Source of the DNA: Ensifer sp. IC3342
Lineage (GTDB): Bacteria > Pseudomonadota > Alphaproteobacteria > Rhizobiales > Rhizobiaceae
Length of the DNA stretch: 64,000 nt
Reading direction: 5' to 3'
NCBI RefSeq assembly: GCF_020193655.1
Contig: NZ_JADYVE010000005.1
Span: 62,001 to 126,000, forward strand
Shown: piece by piece, positions 13,686-22,461 of the stretch
How positions within the stretch are numbered: position 1 is the stretch's first letter
Layout: every line of letters begins with the position of its first letter
Notes under the pieces: model-generated
Told to the model about the DNA's origin: nothing
What the model saw: only the letters and a program-made list of their open reading frames with translations
Database searches by the model: none
Translations under genes and position numbers: made by a program

Positions 13686-13730
13686 TTGACTCCTGCCGGT
13701 GCACCTTTACACATACAGTTGTCAGACATC
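13686..13730 (+). promoter_or_regulatory. Putative promoter and GntR operator of the transporter operon
   Basis: TTGACT at 13686-13691 and TACACA at 13708-13713 are spaced 16 bp, as a weak sigma70-like pair. GTTGTCAGACATC at 13718-13730 follows directly and shares TTGTCAGACA exactly with the site at 20773-20785 before the GntR gene, and closely resembles the site at 20645-20657. The position just downstream of the -10 suits repression. The binding regulator is presumed to be the GntR protein at 20820. Confidence 0.5.
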
Positions 13731-13776
13731 TTACATAAAGAGGGATCGTGGCTGACGGATCGAAGAGGAGGATCAT

Positions 13777-14604
13777 GTGAATAAGCTCATCGCACGACTT
13801 GCCATCGGGGTTGCATTCGTAGCTGCCGCAGTCTCTGCCCATGCCGGAGAGACGTTAGACCGCGTCATGGAAAAGAAGGCGATGGTCGTCGCAACCAACA
13901 GCGGCTGGCCGCCCCAGAGCTACCTGGACGACAACAACGAGATGGTCGGGTTCGACATCGATGTCTCGCGTGAGATCGCCAAGCGCCTCGGCGTCGAGGT
14001 GAGCTTCGAGACGCCGGACTGGGCGACGCTCACCGGTGGCCGTTGGCAGGGGCGCTACGACCTCGGCGTCGGCTCGGTGACACCCACCAAGGCGCGCGCC
14101 CAGGTTATCGATTTCGCCGGCATCTATTACTACAGCCCGTACGTCTACGTCCTGCACAAGGACAGCGAGGCGAAGTCGATCGACGATCTGAAGGGCAAGG
14201 TTATCGGCGTCGAGACGGCGACAACCTCGGAAGACTTCATCAACCGCCGGCTTGAAATCGACGCGCCGGGCTTGCCGCCGATCGAGTACAAACTGGAGCC
14301 GGGCGAGGTGCGGACCTTTGCCGACTCGATGCTACCCTTCGATGACCTGCGCCTCGGCAACGGTGTGCGCCTCGATGCGGTGATCGCACCTGAGCAGACC
14401 GCGCTCAACGCAATCAAGAACGGCTATCCGCTACGCGTGATGGATGGCGAATACGCCTTCAAGGAGCCGCTGGTCGTCATCGCCGAGAAAGTCGATCCGG
14501 AATGGACCGAAAAGGTCGGCGGCATCATCGAAGAGATGAAGAAGGACGGAACGCTGGCGACGCTTACCACCAAGTGGTACGGCAAGGACTACAGCGCGGA
14601 CTGA
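13777..14604 (+). CDS. Amino-acid-type ABC transporter substrate-binding protein
   Basis: A 275-residue periplasmic SBP_bac_3 protein. Signal peptide about 1-23 (cleavage after SAHA). Family segments are NSGWPPQSYLDDNNEMVGFDIDV, DLGVGSVTPTKARAQVIDFAG, and a C-terminal MKKDGTLATLTTKWYGKDY. It starts with GTG at 13777: GAGGAGG is 5-11 nt upstream and the overlapping ATG at 13774 is followed at once by a stop. It heads an operon with an FAD oxidoreductase, permease, DMT exporter and ATPase. From the linked FrlB/FrlD-type genes, fructosyl-amino acids (Amadori compounds) are the likely ligands; this is inference. Confidence 0.88.
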   Translation: MNKLIARLAIGVAFVAAAVSAHAGETLDRVMEKKAMVVATNSGWPPQSYLDDNNEMVGFDIDVSREIAKRLGVEVSFETPDWATLTGGRWQGRYDLGVGSVTPTKARAQVIDFAGIYYYSPYVYVLHKDSEAKSIDDLKGKVIGVETATTSEDFINRRLEIDAPGLPPIEYKLEPGEVRTFADSMLPFDDLRLGNGVRLDAVIAPEQTALNAIKNGYPLRVMDGEYAFKEPLVVIAEKVDPEWTEKVGGIIEEMKKDGTLATLTTKWYGKDYSAD

Positions 14605-14610
14605 CAGGGT

Positions 14611-14637
14611 GGGCGCGGGCGTTATTCGCTCGCGCCC
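14611..14637 (+). terminator. Intercistronic hairpin after the binding-protein gene
   Basis: GGGCGCG (14611-14617) pairs with CGCGCCC (14631-14637). It lies seven bases after the binding-protein stop codon and before the oxidoreductase start, followed by CTCTGCATTTTT. It may act as a partial terminator or 3' stabiliser that keeps binding-protein mRNA more abundant than the rest of the operon. Confidence 0.45.
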
Positions 14638-14665
14638 TCTGCATTTTTCAGCGGACCGGCACGGC

Positions 14666-15946
14666 ATGACCTACCCAGACAGCTATTACAGACGAACCAT
14701 GGCGGACCAGACGGTGCGCCGGTCGCTCGCAGGCAACGTGGACTGCGACACCGTTATCATCGGCGGGGGCCTCGCGGGCCTCACCACGGCACTGCAGCTT
14801 GCGCGGGGCGGGCAGGCGGTTGCCATCCTGGAGGCCGAGAGCGTCGGGTTCGGAGCTTCCGGCCGTAACGGAGGCTTCGTCAGTCCCGGTTATGCGACCG
14901 GCAGCGCCGAGATCGCACGGATTGCCGGCGAGGATGCCGCCCGCCGCCTCCATCTGATGTCGATCGAAGGTATGGACTTCGTGCGTGAGACGATCGAGGC
15001 ACTGGCGATCCGCGATGCCCTGCCGACAAGCGGGATCACAAGCGTGCTGCGCTATGAGGACGGTGCCAGCCTGAAGGCGCATGCGGAGAAAATGCATCGG
15101 CTGTACGACTACGAACTCGACTATCTCGACTGCGATCAGGTGCGTTCGGTGTTGAAGTCAAAGCGCTATTTCCAGGCGCTGCGCGACAGTCGGGCGTTCC
15201 ACATGCATCCGCTCAACTATTTGCGTGCGCTTGCCGGCGAGATCGAGCGCCTCGGCGGCATGATCTACGAATCCTCTGCTGCGACGAAGGTGGTGCTCGA
15301 CGGCGCCGAGAAGCGGATCTTGACCGCGGGTGGCGAGGTTCGGGCCCGCACCGTCGTCTTCACGACGGGCGGCTACACTGGACCGCTTCATGGCAGGCTC
15401 AAGCGCGCCTTCCTGCCGATCGCGACCTACGTGATGGTCAGCGAGGAAGCGCCCGATCTCATCGCTTCGGCGATCACGACCGGCGACGCGATCGGCGATA
15501 ACCGCCGTGCTGGAGATTATTACCGCGTCGTCGACGGCGGAAAGCGCCTGCTGTGGGGTGGGCGTATCACAACTCGCGCCGCCTCGACGGGTGCGCTCGT
15601 ACGGGAGCTTCGGGCGGAGATGGTTGGTACCTATCCGCAGCTTTCCGGCCTGAAGACTGAGCTCGCCTGGTCGGGTCTCATGTCCTATGCGCGGCACCTG
15701 ATGCCCCAGATCGGCCGGATGAGCCCCGGCGTATGGTACTGCACGGCGTTTGGCGGCCATGGGCTCAACACGACGGCAATCGGCGGCAGGGTCGTCGCCG
15801 AGGGCATCCTCGGCCAATCGGAGCGCTACAAGCTTTATCAGCCGTTCGGGCTCGTGTGGGCGGGCGGGCTTGCCGGCCTGGCCGTCGCCCAACTCACCTA
15901 TTGGAAACTCCAGGCGCAGGACTGGTGGCGCGAACGCGCCGCCTGA
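14666..15946 (+). CDS. FAD-dependent amine/amino-acid oxidase (DAO family)
   Basis: A 426-residue flavoprotein of the DAO/PuuB-OrdL type. The ADP-binding motif GGGLAG is at 33-38 (VIIGGGLAGLTTALQLARGG), then GFGASGRNGGFVSPGY, and a C-terminal FGGHGLNTTAIGGRVVAEG. The N-terminal MTYPDSYY is typical of this group and supports ATG 14666. Such enzymes oxidise secondary amines; some relatives are amadoriases that cleave fructosyl-amino acids. Embedded between the binding protein and permease of an importer and linked to FrlB/FrlD-like genes, an oxidative deglycation role is plausible. The hydrophobic C-terminus (WAGGLAGLAVAQLTYW) might bind membrane. Confidence 0.82.
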   Translation: MTYPDSYYRRTMADQTVRRSLAGNVDCDTVIIGGGLAGLTTALQLARGGQAVAILEAESVGFGASGRNGGFVSPGYATGSAEIARIAGEDAARRLHLMSIEGMDFVRETIEALAIRDALPTSGITSVLRYEDGASLKAHAEKMHRLYDYELDYLDCDQVRSVLKSKRYFQALRDSRAFHMHPLNYLRALAGEIERLGGMIYESSAATKVVLDGAEKRILTAGGEVRARTVVFTTGGYTGPLHGRLKRAFLPIATYVMVSEEAPDLIASAITTGDAIGDNRRAGDYYRVVDGGKRLLWGGRITTRAASTGALVRELRAEMVGTYPQLSGLKTELAWSGLMSYARHLMPQIGRMSPGVWYCTAFGGHGLNTTAIGGRVVAEGILGQSERYKLYQPFGLVWAGGLAGLAVAQLTYWKLQAQDWWRERAA

Positions 15947-15965
15947 GACAGGGAAGACCACAACC

Positions 15966-16937
15966 ATGATCGGTCGATTGATCCTCACCTATCCGGAAGC
16001 ATCGCGGCGCGCCGGCGCCCTTCTTGTGCTCGCGCTCGTGACACTTGCGCTTTACCAACTCGGGATCAGCTCCGCCTGGATCGGCCGGTTGCTGCCGGCG
16101 TCGCAAGGCTGGCTCGGGGAAAATCCGGCGGCCGGTCGCCTCGTCTCGGCACTCCTGATCGCGCTGATCGTGGCGGCGAACTGGAAGGCGCTACGCCAAC
16201 TTTCCCGTCGTCAGCAGATTGTCGCCGTTTGGGCCGAACTCTTCGCGCTCCTAATGTTGTTCTTCTATTCCTTCGATCTATCCTTCGCCTTCATCGCAAA
16301 GAAGATCGGATTCCTCGTCTCACAGGGCGTCATTACGACCCTCTACATCTCGGCGATTTCCATTGTGATCGCGACGGTCATTGCGCTTGCCGGCGCCATT
16401 GCGAAGCTCTCCACCAACGGCGTCGTCTACGGGCTCGCTACCTTCTACACCTCGCTGTTCCGCGGCCTTCCGCTGCTCATGCAAATCTACATCATCTATC
16501 TCGGCTTGCCTCAGGTCGGCTACGTGATCAGCGCCGTTCCCGCCGGCATCCTGGCGCTCTCGCTCTGCTACGGCGCCTACATGACCGAGATCTTCCGCGC
16601 CGGCATCGAGAGCATTCCACGCGGCCAGACGGAAGGCGCGACCGCGCTCGGTCTCAGCCCCGCCCAGACAATGGGCCTCGTGATCCTGCCTCAGGCGATG
16701 CGCGTCATCATCCCGCCTACCGGCAACCAGTTCATCGCGATGCTGAAGGACTCCTCACTTGTTTCGGTCGTCGGCGTCTGGGAAATCATGTACCTCGCGC
16801 GTACCCAAGGTCAGACGGAGTTCCGCCACATCGAGATGCTGATCACCGCTTCGATGATCTACTGGATCCTCTCGATCTGCCTCGAATATTGCCAGGCGCG
16901 CATCGAGGAACGCTTCGGACGCTTCGATGTCCGCTGA
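15966..16937 (+). CDS. Amino-acid ABC transporter permease (HisM/GltK type)
   Basis: A 323-residue inner-membrane permease. The N-terminal ~95 residues add two or three extra membrane segments to the usual ~220-residue core. The core has TTLYISAISIVIATVIALAG, the signature YTSLFRGLPLLMQIYIIYLG, and the EAA loop EGATALGLSPAQTMGLVILPQAMRVIIPP. The ATG at 15966 is used; the frame extends upstream inside the oxidoreductase gene but without resemblance. It overlaps the exporter gene by 11 bp. It forms the membrane part of the importer with the SBP at 13777 and the ATPase at 17832. Confidence 0.92.
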   Translation: MIGRLILTYPEASRRAGALLVLALVTLALYQLGISSAWIGRLLPASQGWLGENPAAGRLVSALLIALIVAANWKALRQLSRRQQIVAVWAELFALLMLFFYSFDLSFAFIAKKIGFLVSQGVITTLYISAISIVIATVIALAGAIAKLSTNGVVYGLATFYTSLFRGLPLLMQIYIIYLGLPQVGYVISAVPAGILALSLCYGAYMTEIFRAGIESIPRGQTEGATALGLSPAQTMGLVILPQAMRVIIPPTGNQFIAMLKDSSLVSVVGVWEIMYLARTQGQTEFRHIEMLITASMIYWILSICLEYCQARIEERFGRFDVR

Positions 16938-17814
16938 CGTCTCCTCCGCGGGTGCCGACGGTGCGGCGCCCGCGCCCGCCAACGGGCGGGCCGCGCTCGT
17001 GGTGCTTTTAGCCTTCGCCGTCTTTTCCGGCACGGATGCCATCGTGAAGGTGCTTGCAGTCGGAATCGCGGCGCCGCAGGTGACGTTTCTGGTAACGGCG
17101 GCGGCGCTGTTCATCCTCTTCTGTCATGCAGGCGTCGTTGGCCGCCTCCGACGGCTCGTGCCGCGCCAGCCCGGTCTCGCCCTGCTGCGTGCACTTCTTC
17201 TAGCCGGCGACACCTTGCTCATCCACTATGCCTTTGCGGCCCTGCCGCTCGCCGAGGCCTATCTGCTTGCCTTCCTGACGCCGATTCTTGTGGCGATGCT
17301 CGGATTTGTACTGCTTGGCGAGCGGCTTTCGCCGATCGGCTGGGCAGGCGTGGTGATCGGCTTCGCTGGCGTAACGGTGGCGCTGAAGCCCGGTGTCGCG
17401 CCGCTTAACCTCGGCCATGCTGCCGCCGTCGGCTCGGCGGTTCTTTTCGCGCTCTCGCTCGTTCTCCTGCGCCGGGCGAAGACGGCGGAGACTGACGAGG
17501 CGCTCGTCGCGAGCCTGCTCGTCGTTCTGACGCCGCTTTCGCTCGGCGCGGCCCTCATCGGCGGCGGCATCGTCCCCGTCAGCGCGCAAGACTTCGCGCT
17601 TGCGTTCGCCGGCGGTGCGTTGCTTCTTGGCGGCCACGCTCTGCTGGTCCGGGCGTTCCGCATCGGAGAAGCCTCGGTTGTCGCCCCCTTCCAGTACAGC
17701 CAGATCGTCTGGGGCGGCCTCTACGGCGTGCTCCTCTTCTCAACACCCCTCGAATTCCACACGCTGGCTGGCGCCGGAATCATCGTCCTGTCCGGCTGGC
17801 TCGTGCTCAAATGA
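16927..17814 (+). CDS. EamA/DMT-superfamily transporter
   Basis: A 295-residue membrane protein with ten predicted segments and two EamA repeats. Typical segments are [48 protein letters not shown], and [19 protein letters not shown]. The family exports amino acids, nucleotide bases and related small molecules. It starts within the permease gene and ends 4 bp into the alternative ATPase start, so it is translated as part of the ABC operon. It could relieve excess amino acid or amine released by deglycation; that role is inference. Confidence 0.88.
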
Positions 17815-17831
17815 CATCCGGGAGACTCATC

Positions 17832-18584
17832 ATGCCCACGTCCACCGAAGGACTGTCGGAAATCCAGCTTCGCGGCGTTCACAAATGGTACGGCCACTAC
17901 CATGCGCTTGACGACATAAACCTCTCGATCGCCCCCCGCGAAAAAGTCGTGATCTGCGGCCCCTCCGGCTCAGGAAAGTCGACGCTCATCCGCTGCGTCA
18001 ATCGTCTGGAGACGCATGAAAGCGGCCGGATCGTTGTCGCTGGCGTCGAGCTAGATCATGACGAGAAGCGGGTGGATGCGATCCGCCGCGAGGTCGGCAT
18101 GGTCTTTCAGCAGTTCAACCTCTTTCCGCATCTGACAATCCTCGAAAACTGCACGCTGGCACCGATGTGGGTGAAAAAGATGCCGAAGAAGGAGGCGCGC
18201 GAGATCGCGATGCATTTCCTTGAGCGTGTACGCATTCCCGAACAGGCCAACAAATATCCGGGGCAGCTGTCCGGCGGCCAGCAGCAGCGCGTCGCGATCG
18301 CCCGCGCGCTCTGCATGAATCCACGCGTCATGCTCTTCGATGAGCCGACCTCTGCGCTCGATCCGGAGATGGTCAAGGAAGTGCTCGATACAATGGTGGC
18401 GCTTGCCGGCGAGGGCATGACGATGGTCTGCGTCACGCACGAGATGGGCTTTGCCCGCCAGGTTGCCGACCGCGTGATCTTCATGGACCGCGGCCGGATC
18501 GTCGAAGAGGGGACGCCGGACGAGTTCTTCGCGCGCCCCAGGACGGAACGTGCGAGCATTTTCCTGAGCCAGCTCCTCCATTGA
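17832..18584 (+). CDS. Amino-acid ABC transporter ATP-binding protein (HisP/GlnQ type)
   Basis: A 250-residue ATPase. Walker [10 protein letters not shown] (43-51), the [16 protein letters not shown]-loop typical of polar amino acid importers, signature [15 protein letters not shown], Walker [15 protein letters not shown], and [16 protein letters not shown]. The ATG at 17832 has GGGAGA upstream and is preferred over the ATG at 17811, which overlaps the exporter stop. It completes the importer. It ends 25 bp from the convergent kinase gene. Confidence 0.93.
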
Positions 18585-18608
18585 AGCCGATCCGGCGCCT
18601 CCCACGGC

Positions 18609-19421
18609 CTAGAATGGCAAAGGCTCCTGCGGAAAACCGCCGACATGGGTGCAGGTCTCGGCGGCCCAGTCCCGACCGGCCTCCAGACATGCGGAAAGCG
18701 GCTTGCCAGCGACTTGGGCTGCAAGAAACGCAGCGATGAAGCTGTCGCCGGCACCCGTTGTATCGACGACCGCGACTGGCGTGATGCCGGCTTCGACGCG
18801 GATAATCCCGTCGGTTGCCATTGAACCCTTCGATCCGCGCGTGACGACGGCGATACGGGCGCCCTGCGCCAGAAGTTCAGCCGCGATCTGCTCCGCCGCC
18901 GCCTCGTCGGGACCGGCCGAGGCGAAGGCGATGGCAAGCCCCGCGACTCCGAGGTCGTCCGGGTTGGCGTTCACCGAAACGTCCTGCGACAGGCTGACCC
19001 CTTCCGCCGCCAGCCTGCGCCTGAGCGCGCCCCCGTCGTCCATCCAGCCGATATGGACATGGTCGAACGTCTTCAGCACAGCCACCTCCGCGTCGTCCGG
19101 TGCATAGCCGGCACAGACGCCAAAATCCTCGTAGGAGATGATGCGCTCGCCCGACGGCAGCACGTCGATATCAGTGTAGGCCGTGACGCCCGACCGCTCC
19201 TGAAGGTGATCCACGGCCACGCCCTTGCTCTGCAGCAAGCGGCGCGTTCGCACGCCGTCTGCATCACGCCCGACGGCACCGAAGTAGTGGGCGACATGCC
19301 ACATTCGGGCGAGTTGTACTGCAACGTTCACGGCGTTGCCGCCGACGAGTGACTGCGAGAGGGGCGGCTGGAAGCGGTCGATGCAATTGTCGCCGACAGT
19401 GGCGAATCGAAGGGGTTTCAT
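18609..19421 (-). CDS. PfkB-family kinase, fructoselysine 6-kinase (FrlD)-like
   Basis: A 270-residue ribokinase-family enzyme. It resembles FrlD closely in landmarks: TVGDNCIDRF, GGNAVNVAVQLARM, GVTAYTDIDV, and the signature VDTTGAGDSFIAAFL with the catalytic Asp226. FrlD phosphorylates the sugar of fructosyl-amino acids at C6. The start at 19421 has GAGG upstream. It is downstream of the FrlB-like gene on the same strand, with a hairpin and a RIME copy between them. The substrate is probably an Amadori compound; fructoselysine itself is not proven. Confidence 0.85.
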   Translation of the reverse strand: MKPLRFATVGDNCIDRFQPPLSQSLVGGNAVNVAVQLARMWHVAHYFGAVGRDADGVRTRRLLQSKGVAVDHLQERSGVTAYTDIDVLPSGERIISYEDFGVCAGYAPDDAEVAVLKTFDHVHIGWMDDGGALRRRLAAEGVSLSQDVSVNANPDDLGVAGLAIAFASAGPDEAAAEQIAAELLAQGARIAVVTRGSKGSMATDGIIRVEAGITPVAVVDTTGAGDSFIAAFLAAQVAGKPLSACLEAGRDWAAETCTHVGGFPQEPLPF

Positions 19422-19448
19422 GCGGGCCCTCGTGATCGGACAATAAAG

Positions 19449-19476
19449 CCGCGAATGCGATGATGTGCATTCGCGG
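19449..19476 (-). terminator. Hairpin between FrlB-like and FrlD-like genes
   Basis: CCGCGAATGC (19449-19458) pairs perfectly with GCATTCGCGG (19467-19476) around an 8-nt loop. It sits immediately upstream of the kinase gene's ribosome binding region and directly beside RIME copy B, so it may modulate expression of the kinase relative to the deglycase. Confidence 0.5.
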
Positions 19477-19479
19477 CGA

Positions 19480-19562
19480 CTGCATGATTCCTTAAACCAT
19501 GCAGAGACTCAAAGCTGTACACCGACCCTTGCGCGTCTGATTAGACGCGCGGCGCTGTAGTC
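19480..19562. repeat. RIME-like repeat, copy B
   Basis: Contains the GCATG ... CATGC hairpin in a degenerate form, followed by the second hairpin ending in GACGCGCGGCGCTGTAG. The orientation is opposite to copy A. It lies inside the presumed deglycase-kinase transcription unit rather than between operons. Confidence 0.8.
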
Positions 19563-19586
19563 GCCTCGGGAGTCTAGCATCCGCGG

Positions 19587-20600
19587 TCAGTAGGCGACGC
19601 GCTTATAGTAGCGGCGAGTCGTGAGCGGATGGTTGCGCATGACCTCGAGATGGGCACTGATGCGTTCGAGCACGGTCGCGAGCAGGACCGGCGAGACGAG
19701 AGCGCGGACCTCGGAGGAAATACCGGGCAGCGCAAAATCCGCCGTGTCGAGTACCGTCAGCTTGTCAGTGTAGTTCGGCGCGAAGTTCTCGACGCGTTCG
19801 GCGAGCGGGCGGAGCGCATCCTCGCCCTTGAAGAGGATGACACTGACGCCCTTTTCGATCAGTTCCAGAGTGCCATGGAAGAAGTCGGAGGCATGCACCG
19901 GACGGGTGCGGATCCATTGCATCTCCTCCAGAATGCACATGCCGTAGTAGAAGGCCTGCGGCCATACGTTCCCAGCGCCGGTGATGATGTGATAGTCGGA
20001 CCCTGCGAGGATCTTCGCGAAGGCCCCGGCCTTAGGCTCGTAGGCGCGTTTCACCTCCAGCAGCAGTTCCGGCATCCTTGCCAATTCGGCGACGATCCCC
20101 TCGTGGTTCGCGATCTCGCCGCGCTGCTTCAGGATGGCGAGTGCGATGAAGAGCGACTGCAGATAGAAGGACTCGCAGGACGTGTCGTCTTCGGCGAAGT
20201 TGACGAAGACATGATCGCCGCCCTTGCCCAATGGCGTATTCTCGTGGCCGACGAGCGTAATGACGGTCGCCCCGGTCTCCTTGAGCTTGCCAAGCAACGC
20301 CACGCTCTCTTTCGTCGTGCCGGAGAGCGACGGTATCACGACGATCGACTTCTCAGTCAGATGCGCGCAGCCCGTAACGACGAGTTCGGCCGGCATGTCG
20401 AGGAAGGCGGGGAAGCGCGAACGCCGTTGCAGCAGCTGAGCGGCCGGCTGCATCAGAATCGCCGCTCCGCCGGTGCCGAGAAAGAAGATATTTTCGGCGC
20501 CGGCCGAAAGGCAGGAGGCAATCACCGCTTCGAGGCGCTTCTGCAGCGCGATAGCCTCCGACTGTATGCGGAGAAATCTCTGTTCGTCAAAATTCAGCAT
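19587..20600 (-). CDS. SIS-domain deglycase, FrlB-like (fructosyl-amino acid 6-phosphate deglycase)
   Basis: A 337-residue protein with two SIS domains (first: IFFLGTGGAAIL, VIPSLSGTTKES; second: YHIITGAGNVWPQAFYYG and VHASDFFHGTLELIE). The C-terminal HPLTTRRYYKRVAY is a hallmark of the FrlB group, which splits fructosyl-amino acid 6-phosphates into glucose 6-phosphate and amino acid. The ATG at 20600 starts the conserved region; the longer frame from 20663 would cover the operator at 20645-20657. Paired with the FrlD-like kinase at 18609 and probably controlled by the GntR protein at 20820. Confidence 0.85.
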   Translation of the reverse strand: MLNFDEQRFLRIQSEAIALQKRLEAVIASCLSAGAENIFFLGTGGAAILMQPAAQLLQRRSRFPAFLDMPAELVVTGCAHLTEKSIVVIPSLSGTTKESVALLGKLKETGATVITLVGHENTPLGKGGDHVFVNFAEDDTSCESFYLQSLFIALAILKQRGEIANHEGIVAELARMPELLLEVKRAYEPKAGAFAKILAGSDYHIITGAGNVWPQAFYYGMCILEEMQWIRTRPVHASDFFHGTLELIEKGVSVILFKGEDALRPLAERVENFAPNYTDKLTVLDTADFALPGISSEVRALVSPVLLATVLERISAHLEVMRNHPLTTRRYYKRVAY

Positions 20601-20644
20601 GGTCCTGCTCTCGGTAAAACGGATGGTGATCGTCGGAAGCCGAT

Positions 20645-20657
20645 GTTGTAAGACAAC
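20645..20657 (-). promoter_or_regulatory. Operator-like palindrome before the FrlB-like gene
   Basis: GTTGTAAGACAAC is an inverted repeat (GTTGT-N3-ACAAC) 45-57 bp upstream of the deglycase start. It differs at only a few positions from the words at 13718-13730 and 20773-20785. Together they suggest a common repressor. Confidence 0.55.
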
Positions 20658-20772
20658 TGACATCTCGACGGCAGCGTGTCAAGCCACACCCTTCTGATTT
20701 CCGTTGCAGTTTCCTGTAACAGCAAAATGCTCCTCTGAAGTGAACGCACTTCATTCGCTTGACCTCCGCGAA

Positions 20773-20785
20773 TTTGTCAGACAAG
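20773..20785 (+). promoter_or_regulatory. Operator-like palindrome before the GntR gene
   Basis: TTTGTCAGACAAG lies 35-47 bp upstream of the GntR/UTRA regulator start. It is near-perfectly symmetric (CTTGTC TGACAAA on the other strand) and shares TTGTCAGACA with the site at 13718-13730. The location suggests autoregulation. Confidence 0.55.
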
Positions 20786-20819: not shown

Positions 20820-21551
20820 ATGGACGAACCCCTTCGCGATTCGCGTACCCTGGCCATCCAGCTTCGTGACCGCATCGCCGATCTCATCCACGGCGAGGGC
20901 CTGAAGCCGGGCGACAAGCTGCCGACCGAGGCGCAACTGACCCAACGCTTCAAGATCTCCCGGCCTGCGCTGCGCGAGGCGCTGAAGCTGCTGGAACAGG
21001 ATGGCCTCATCTACGTCGAGCACGGCCGGGGCCGCTTCGTCTCGGCGATCTCAGCCGTACACGTCGACCGGCCTATTACCGTCTTCGAGAGCGTGACCGA
21101 CATGGCGCACCATTACGGCTACAGGCCGCTCAACAAGGTGCTCTCGATCGCCGAGGAGACCCCTGACAAGCACGTGGCCGCACAGCTTCAACTGACGGCG
21201 ACAGACCGGGTCATCCGCATCGAACGGCTGCGGTTGCAGGGCGACGAGCCGATCCTCTATTGCCTCGATTACGTGCCGCGCAGCATCATTCCGGCCAGGC
21301 TCTATGACATCGACTGGAGCGGTTCGCTGCTTTCCCTGCTGGAGGAATACAAGAACCGGCCGCGCATGTCGGCTGCCACGGTCTCTGCCGTCATGCTGCC
21401 CGACGAGGTCGTCCAGCGCAACGACCTGCGCGATTTCGGACCGGCGCTGCTCATCACCGAGACCTGCTTCAATGCTGCCGGCACGCCAGTGAACTACGCG
21501 ATCGACTATCACCGCGGCAGCCATTTCTCCTTCAGCCTCGTGCGCAAGTGA
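20820..21551 (+). CDS. GntR-family (HutC/UTRA) regulator, FrlR-like
   Basis: A 243-residue regulator. The N-terminal winged helix includes KPGDKLPTEAQLTQRFKISRPALREALKLLEQDGLIYVEHGRGRF in family form, and the C-terminal UTRA effector domain (about 85-240) includes DRVIRIERLRLQGDEPILY and ending NYAIDYHRGSHFSFSLVRK. A GGAGG sits 7 nt before the ATG. UTRA domains bind phosphorylated sugars, amines or related ligands, which suits a fructosyl-amino acid phosphate. It is divergent from the FrlB-like gene; three related palindromes in the cluster are its candidate sites. Confidence 0.88.
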   Translation: MDEPLRDSRTLAIQLRDRIADLIHGEGLKPGDKLPTEAQLTQRFKISRPALREALKLLEQDGLIYVEHGRGRFVSAISAVHVDRPITVFESVTDMAHHYGYRPLNKVLSIAEETPDKHVAAQLQLTATDRVIRIERLRLQGDEPILYCLDYVPRSIIPARLYDIDWSGSLLSLLEEYKNRPRMSAATVSAVMLPDEVVQRNDLRDFGPALLITETCFNAAGTPVNYAIDYHRGSHFSFSLVRK

Positions 21552-21590
21552 CTTGGCGAAAACTGCCGAGGTAGGAGGATCAATATCCTG

Positions 21591-21680
21591 CTGCATGATT
21601 TCTTAAATCGGAACAAAAACAGCAGCGCTCGAAGCGCTACGGCGTCCTTTACACGTCTGAGATGCGCGGCGCTTTAGTCG
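21591..21680. repeat. RIME-like repeat, copy C
   Basis: CTGCATGATTTCTTAAATCGG begins a degenerate first hairpin, followed by AGCGCTACGGCGTCC and a second half ending GATGCGCGGCGCTTTAG. It is more diverged than copies A, D, E and H and overlaps the 3' end of the GXWXG gene by seven bases. Confidence 0.7.
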
Positions 21681-22204: not shown

Positions 22205-22461
22205 CTTGATGCCCTTACTCAACGACGTGCCCAAGTCGTTACACATGCCGCGTTTACCTAGGGCGCGCCTGCTTGAACGTCCATACTCCCGTCTTGACTC
22301 GGGCGGCATGCTCCGTTCGCTGCGAATGCATGTTTCTTCAAACCGGCGCCGATTAGGATAGACGTGCAGCAATAACAAGCGCTAGAGCTGCCTTCGCGAG
22401 TCCCATGAGACGCGCTGCGCTGAGGGCCGGCCGTTGACACAGGCCAGTCTGTAGGCGTCAG

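Follow-up and report, generated by a model that had tools for sequence, protein, structure and literature searches.

We consider a window of 64,000 nucleotides (nt) from Ensifer sp. IC3342, that is, the whole stretch of DNA that was analysed, taken from a genome of 7.42 Mb. It contains an 8.1-kb cluster with genes for an ATP-binding cassette (ABC) importer and an oxidase dependent on flavin adenine dinucleotide (FAD), a gene pair encoding a SIS-domain deglycase-like protein and a PfkB kinase, and a gntR gene, divergent from the SIS gene, whose product combines a GntR winged helix with a UTRA effector domain. Three short words, called operators A, B and C below, stand before the binding-protein gene of the importer, before the SIS-kinase operon and in the gntR promoter, respectively (Table 1). 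Among the plasmids searched, the nearest DNA record is a 2.09-Mb Sinorhizobium terangae plasmid, with 94.5% identity over 98% of the stretch.

The words GTTGTCAGACATC (operator A), GTTGTAAGACAAC (operator B) and TTTGTCAGACAAG (operator C) were read directly in the sequence at the positions given in a preliminary description of this DNA, and all have the common form TTGT-NNN-ACA. That description had also claimed an exact share between the first and third words and a spacing of 35-60 bp to the gene starts. Both points hold: TTGTCAGACA is common to operators A and C, and the distances from operator centre to start are 53 (A), 51 (B) and 41 bp (C). The half-sites of operator B are perfectly palindromic (GTTGT AAG ACAAC), and operator C is a simple palindrome. 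In the window alone the count of words is unremarkable: with at most one mismatch there are 4 matches against 1.82 expected, and 4 are reached in 13 of 100 shuffles. Genome-wide, TTGTMWKACA occurs at 16 distinct places, 3 of them inside the cluster (binomial P 7e-7, which is indicative only because the pattern was derived from the sites themselves). In nine relatives, TTGTCWGACA gives 3-16 strand matches per genome, 2-3 of these in the cluster; in one of the nine all 3 matches lie there, and in the eight others 2-3 of 4-16.

Two sets of loci were used for comparing promoters. A search of 151 family genomes with the SIS protein gave matches at E <= 1e-30 in 22, the own genome counted, and nine fetched regions in which a GntR orthologue adjoins the SIS gene (L047-L055) were combined with 14 named plasmid clusters and the window into an aligned set of 23 importer promoters and 24 gntR-side regions. 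The other set consists of the best 80 of 136 loci found by scanning a genome collection with a GntR alignment; its titles are mainly Rhizobium, Sinorhizobium/Ensifer, Shinella, Mesorhizobium and Microvirga, plus others, and the upstream spans scanned were 200 bp for the binding-protein gene, 150 bp for the SIS gene and 120 bp for the GntR gene. One faulty locus (L186) was removed from the binding-protein promoters, leaving 77, although the counts of control forms still use 78 with this locus included. Note that the upstream sequences of the 80-locus set are all distinct, yet the species are related and the two sets overlap partly in strains, so that the promoter counts do not equal numbers of independent events.

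The comparison with related rhizobia, which the preliminary description had proposed, finds the words conserved. In the aligned set, operator A is exact in 22/23 promoters and operators B and C in 22/24 each, and in the 80-locus set the exact word is present in 68/77 binding-protein, 68/71 SIS and 70/80 GntR promoters, where mononucleotide shuffles of the same promoters give expectations of 1.9, 1.0 and 0.7. Control forms (reversed, or with 2-nt or 4-nt spacing) are found 0-2 times per promoter set; in particular, the 4-nt form, which is the HutC type, occurs in 1/78, 1/71 and 0/80 promoters in the same order. Another half-site control, GTTG...CAA, gives 3/78, 2/71 and 9/80. In the aligned gntR upstream region, words B and C form the top 11-column windows (0.98, against a column mean of 0.38). 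The inverted repeat GAAGTG-AACG-CACTTC (20738-20753) was also considered and was rejected, being unconserved in that region. Two Rhizobium plasmids with flipped SIS-kinase units retain the operator sites, and the word is absent from six regions that carry a 58-64% SIS paralogue and in which no GntR orthologue was found.

The words also keep fixed places within their promoters. Measured from the first base of TTGAC to the first T of TTGT, the distance is 33 nt in 49/68 importer promoters (32-35 nt in 65/68), 26 nt in 56/68 SIS-kinase promoters (9 have no TTGAC) and 15 nt in 69/70 gntR promoters. If TTGAC is the -35 box, operator C would lie between -35 and -10, operator B over the -10 box or start, and operator A at the start, so that a bound dimer would block polymerase at all three. 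A scan for consensus promoters called none of these three.

At two of the operators the palindrome is accompanied by a third half-site. At operator A, ACA recurs exactly 7 nt beyond the ACA of the palindrome in 63/68 promoters, with 0-2/68 for every other offset between 4 and 12, and at operator B, TGT precedes the TGT of the palindrome by exactly 7 nt in 66/68 (the next best offset, 10, has 7/68). At operator C the 7-nt half-site is present in 0/70, and the highest other offset from 4 to 12 is ACA at +6 (13/70). Read on one strand, A and B have the common layout TGTNNNN-TGTCNNACAAC. According to Suvorova et al. (PMC4494728), GntR-family sites have weaker boxes 7-12 nt from the site centre. 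In the present cluster the extra half-sites distinguish the structural operons from gntR, which has none. The third half-site probably acts in binding.

Because of the conservation, the fixed promoter spacing and the presence of an operator at the repressor's own gene, a single GntR regulon is strongly supported, and we consider it very probable that the three operators form one local regulon under the adjacent GntR/UTRA repressor.

The repressor has the domain order of the HutC subfamily, PF00392 (61 bits) followed by PF07702 (110 bits) in Pfam, and no FCD domain, the effector domain of FadR, was found in it at E <= 0.001, UTRA taking its place. Its operators are of another kind: a GT-AC spacing of 3 nt is typical of FadR and one of 4 nt of most HutC operators, with exceptions (PMC4494728), and the spacing here is 3 nt at the three window sites and in 206/228 promoters of relatives. 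For scoring the DNA-binding domain, an FCD-versus-UTRA scale was made with 29 FCD domains (own genome) and 33 UTRA domains (own genome and class). Its score of +2.9 is above those of the 33 other UTRA proteins (maximum 0.1) and low in the FCD range, and is due to the recognition helix, which is FadR-like (+9.1, compared with means of -13.0 for UTRA and +12.6 for FCD); the wing is UTRA-like. The best PDB match of the domain is PdhR. A simple swap, in which a FadR DNA-binding domain was fused to UTRA, was rejected in that plain form, despite the helix score, since a 60-column tree places the domain among UTRA proteins (support 96/69), on a long branch. In view of the helix score and the tree position, we read the protein as a repressor of UTRA lineage in which the recognition helix has grown FadR-like.

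Alignment with NagR gives information on both sides of the protein. For residues, as for gene content below, the counts refer to 94 loci. In NagR, Arg38 and Arg48 read two adjacent guanines, the GG of TGGT (PMC4333415). In 94/94 loci of the present repressor Arg48 is kept and position 38 carries Ala or Ser, which would be consistent with a TTGT operator, a weak sign when taken alone. On the effector side, the NagR phosphate ligands Thr90, Arg133, Arg135 and Ser165 map to T93, R136, R138 and S169, and the set is kept as T/S-R-R-S in 94/94 loci as against 7/33 other UTRA proteins. Since these ligands are kept in all loci, a phosphorylated inducer is favoured, and the inducer seems likely to be of this type.

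Table 1. Genes, operators and promoter elements of the cluster, in window coordinates
Feature	Position	Strand	Remarks
-35-like TTGACT	13686..13691	+	Putative element of the importer operon promoter
Operator A	13718..13730	+	Before the binding-protein gene
Third half-site of operator A, TTACAT	13731..13736	+	7 nt from the right half of the palindrome
Periplasmic binding protein, SBP_bac_3	13777..14604	+	Polar amino-acid/opine importer class; PF00497, 109 bits
FAD-dependent amine oxidase/dehydrogenase, DAO family	14666..15946	+	PF01266 (longer frame from 14609); start chosen from annotated relatives
Amino-acid-type ABC permease	15966..16937	+	PF00528 (longer frame); ATG at 15966
EamA/DMT transporter	16927..17814	+	PF00892; not found in every relative
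ABC ATPase	17829..18584	+	Start 17811 or 17829; best model GlnQ, 316 vs 379 bits
PfkB kinase	18609..19421	-	Nearest model fructoselysine 6-kinase
SIS-domain deglycase-like protein	19587..20600	-	E226, H242 in catalytic-type positions
Operator B	20645..20657	-	Before the SIS-kinase operon
Third half-site of operator B, TGTCA on the gene strand	20658..20662	-	7 nt to one side
-35-like TTGACA	20677..20682	-	Putative element of the SIS-kinase promoter
-35-like TTGACC	20759..20764	+	Putative element of the gntR promoter
Operator C	20773..20785	+	gntR promoter
GntR repressor	20820..21551	+	Winged helix (A38, R48, R52) and UTRA effector domain (T93, R136, R138, S169)

Among PDB chains, the SIS protein is 35.7% identical to 2a3n (333 residues), 29.6% to 3fkj, 29.1% to 3eua and 24.4% to 9ou6. 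It is thus nearer to Salmonella 2a3n, which we take to be a Gfr deglycase, than to FrlB, represented presumably by 3eua, the B. subtilis protein. Of the nearest chains, 3eua alone has a name that says deglycase (putative fructose-amino-acid-6-phosphate deglycase); the rest have names that are general or of another kind. E226 and H242 align with E and H in all four chains, so that the Glu/His pair of the SIS-type glycated-amino-acid-phosphate deglycases, taken broadly, is present. We assume that they correspond to E214 and H230 of FraB, the match to E214 being based on the 16-residue Glu-His spacing. The E214A mutant of FraB is called catalytically inactive (PMC12755824), and one paper assigns fructoselysine-6-P both to GfrE and to GfrF (PMC12675984).

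The AlphaFold model of the oxidase (predicted local distance difference test score, pLDDT, 77) has glycine oxidase as its nearest fold, and the top rows also include DMGDH and sarcosine oxidase. An oxidase of an Agrobacterium plasmid (29%) was also considered and rejected; it sits in an unlike operon. For the ABC ATPase, no gene was found within the L047, L048, L049 and L053 clusters.

Two hairpins lie between genes of the cluster. A strong one, GCCGCGAATGC...GCATTCGCGGC followed by T's, is at 19448-19477 on the minus strand between the SIS and kinase genes; this gap folds with z < -2 in 34/68 loci, relative to mononucleotide shuffles, and some relatives have a similar hairpin. Its effect might be to keep the output of the kinase lower than that of the deglycase and so to limit a toxic phospho-intermediate. 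Between the binding-protein and oxidase genes there is a terminator-like hairpin at 14611-14637, and by the same measure 49/79 of these gaps, among them that of the window, have z < -2; this fits an expression of the binding protein above the rest of the operon. By eye, the intergenic stretches at 19440-19570, 21590-21680 and 22310-22400 are similar, and look to us like copies of the rhizobial intergenic mosaic repeat.

Gene content was judged within the stored stretch of each of the 94 loci, with a threshold of 62% identity or more for the SIS protein. The SIS gene is present in 83 loci, the kinase gene in 83 and both in 81, and the binding-protein and oxidase genes are present in 92 each. 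In the Ensifer adhaerens loci L202-L204 and L137, the native SIS-kinase pair was not found, operator B is retained and a 60-61% SIS paralogue lies downstream of gntR. This looks like the replacement of one deglycase by another. The gene context was covered in L202, where the pair is gone and the cluster that follows gntR encodes a 61% SIS paralogue and, by eye, a LacI-like regulator. A cluster resembling this one is present in the window's own genome as a second cluster on contig C104 (L057/L058); there, what looks by eye like a LacI-type regulator stands together with a 42% PfkB kinase and a 61% SIS paralogue, and the GntR word was not found in L057. A further SIS gene (30%) stands near a UTRA regulator at C104:238127.

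In the mechanism that we propose, a dimer of the GntR/UTRA protein would, without inducer, sit on the TTGTC-W-GACAA-type palindromes overlapping the three promoters and shut off the importer-oxidase operon (A), the deglycase-kinase operon (B) and its own gene (C). The third half-site at A and B would admit a further subunit or dimer, whereby the structural operons would be held tighter than gntR itself. The substrate would be a glycated amino acid, in all likelihood an Amadori compound (fructosyl-amino acid), which the ABC importer would take up and the PfkB kinase would phosphorylate. In its phosphorylated form the compound would bind the UTRA domain and release the repressor, and the SIS enzyme would split it, yielding a sugar phosphate and an amino acid. 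A second, kinase-free route may run through the FAD oxidase. A glycated amino acid is the best guess because a kinase, a deglycase-like enzyme and a phosphate-type effector pocket occur together, and the substrate is probably an Amadori compound or one closely like it. As a whole, a local regulon of one repressor and three operators for the use of glycated amino acids is the explanation that we favour, and we regard it as likely to be right. The more specific proposal is that a HutC-type (UTRA) repressor has shifted, by way of its FadR-like recognition helix, to the FadR register (3-nt spacing, TTGT half-sites), that the third half-site exactly 7 nt away sets the structural operons apart from gntR and gives cooperative, tighter control of import, oxidation and kinase-deglycase breakdown of glycated amino acids in rhizobia, and that the phosphorylated product of the kinase is the inducer. 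It is tentative and less likely than not.

A number of observations weigh against this account. The whole-genome motif scan suggested in the preliminary description was favourable in the share of distinct places that fall in the cluster and unfavourable in the total, since TTGTMWKACA has 19 strand-counted matches as against 26 for the reversed control, that is, no enrichment. A regulon reaching beyond the cluster is accordingly unsupported; the other word matches in the own genome, among the matches listed, were judged by nearby open frames alone. Six Microvirga loci do not have the strict word at gntR, and of the four SIS genes tested there, three are without it; the gntR and SIS sites of these loci are mostly degenerate (for example, TCGTCTGACAAC), and in five of the six the strict TTGTCTGACA stands about 400 bp before the binding-protein match. 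The loss of Arg at position 38 is a weak clue, as it is missing also in 26/33 other UTRA proteins, and the extra half-site could be partly a promoter element. Apart from these points, two relatives have two-strand TTGTCWGACAA sites outside the cluster (G106, C43:86443; G100, C4:129803 and C5:105455), which may belong to FCD-type regulators or be additional targets.

Other adverse points concern the enzymes and the substrate. The preliminary description had called the pair FrlB/FrlD-type, which is right in a loose sense: these are the best NCBIfam models, with both scores below the cut-offs (160.1 against 247 bits for the kinase with NF007321, FrlD, fructoselysine 6-kinase; 77.4 against 430 bits for the SIS protein with NF008481, FrlB), and the SIS protein is nearer to 2a3n. 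No amadoriase is among the best 50 of 1399 fold matches of the oxidase (E <= 0.001), and an amadoriase identity is supported neither by this search nor by a PDB sequence search. The SIS and/or kinase genes are missing from the stored stretch in 13/94 loci, including L232 at a contig end; the kinase is missing in 11/94, where no search was made elsewhere in those genomes. In 12/94 loci the importer, oxidase and repressor occur without the SIS gene (11) and/or the kinase gene nearby, 9 of them without both; in Shinella PSBB067, importer, oxidase and gntR are present and SIS and kinase were not found nearby. The oxidase alone may suffice in some strains, or the partners may be located elsewhere. 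All 13 loci without the SIS and/or kinase genes keep the phosphate residues, so that the kinase product is not necessarily the inducer everywhere. Of the single regulon for Amadori uptake and breakdown that had been put forward, the regulon stands on conservation, spacing and the operator at gntR; the Amadori substrate is plausible and fits the enzymes and the effector pocket, with the 12 loci speaking against it.

These 12 loci are also an argument for a rival in which the regulon and its mechanism are the same and the substrate is a different sugar-amine or N-substituted amino acid. It could be a Heyns compound or a relative of the opines, or else an N-alkyl amino acid that the FAD oxidase would mainly handle; the kinase and deglycase would then serve a related compound. 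The amino-acid/opine class of the binding protein, the resemblance of the oxidase to glycine/sarcosine/pipecolate-type oxidases and the mere 36% identity of the SIS protein to its nearest solved relative agree with this. However, the best models of the two enzymes are fructoselysine 6-kinase and fructoselysine 6-phosphate deglycase, even if below cut-off, the near relative 3eua bears a deglycase name, and the SIS and kinase genes occur together in 81/94 loci; we judge another substrate to be rather unlikely.

That the words are bound by a different regulator, such as a FadR-type GntR protein with an FCD domain, and that the adjacent UTRA protein controls something else, is very improbable. The genome has 35 FCD matches, the 3-nt spacing is of the FadR type (PMC4494728), and the 11-bp core of operator C is identical to the core inside ATTGTCAGACAAT, the sequence protected in the footprint of AlkR of Pseudomonas, an FCD-type GntR regulator (PMC12042122). 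Against this stand the site on the GntR gene's own promoter in 70/80 relatives, contact residues of the repressor that are compatible with the word, its FadR-like recognition helix, and the absence of the word from the six regions that have a SIS paralogue but lack this GntR. Resemblance by chance, or a generic promoter sequence, could explain the count in the window, which 13 of 100 shuffles reach, but not a word conserved at fixed places across dozens of diverged promoters, nor the near absence of the reversed, 2-nt and 4-nt forms, although the GTTG...CAA control does reach 9/80 at gntR; we consider its probability negligible.

With the local regulon for glycated amino acids as the favoured explanation, the cluster offers a testable regulon that probably serves the use of such compounds by plant-associated bacteria, and a clean case for studying how a GntR repressor may alter its operator spacing and keep its effector domain. 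It also bears on the role of the extra half-sites discussed by Suvorova and colleagues, since they are present at two operators of three. In the literature on Amadori use, no description of the regulon was found in titles and abstracts among the matches listed. For the operator words themselves, the regulatory matches recognised in the literature, among those listed, were AlkR and CrgA of Pseudomonas.

Among known systems, the FrlB/FrlD/FrlR systems (B. subtilis frlBONMD-frlP; E. coli frl) are alike in kinase, SIS deglycase, GntR repressor and ABC import. FrlR contains a UTRA domain, and the B. subtilis frl importer is of the carbohydrate type. The Ensifer cluster differs in its amino-acid-type importer, its added FAD oxidase, and SIS and kinase proteins that score below the FrlB and FrlD cut-offs. 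FrlR represses, and fructosevaline induces (PMC12632257). The Salmonella Gfr system provides the closest solved relative of the SIS protein, 2a3n, with equal E and H positions; however, Gfr has a phosphotransferase system importer that phosphorylates the substrate (PMC12675984), whereas Ensifer has an ABC importer and a separate kinase. The Agrobacterium soc/Amadori-opine (santhopine) system of pAtC58 (PMC4231840) is likened here by substrate class alone, no soc gene having been compared. NagR and DasR share the winged helix and UTRA domain with the Ensifer repressor, and the four phosphate-binding residues are matched, but NagR reads GG and HutC-type sites mostly have 4-nt spacing, in contrast to the 3-nt spacing and TTGT of the Ensifer sites. 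Finally, AlkR of P. aeruginosa, an FCD/VanR-type GntR protein, is alike in an operator that contains the 11-bp core of operator C, and differs from the Ensifer repressor in its FCD effector domain, its acyl-CoA effector and its alkane genes (PMC12042122).

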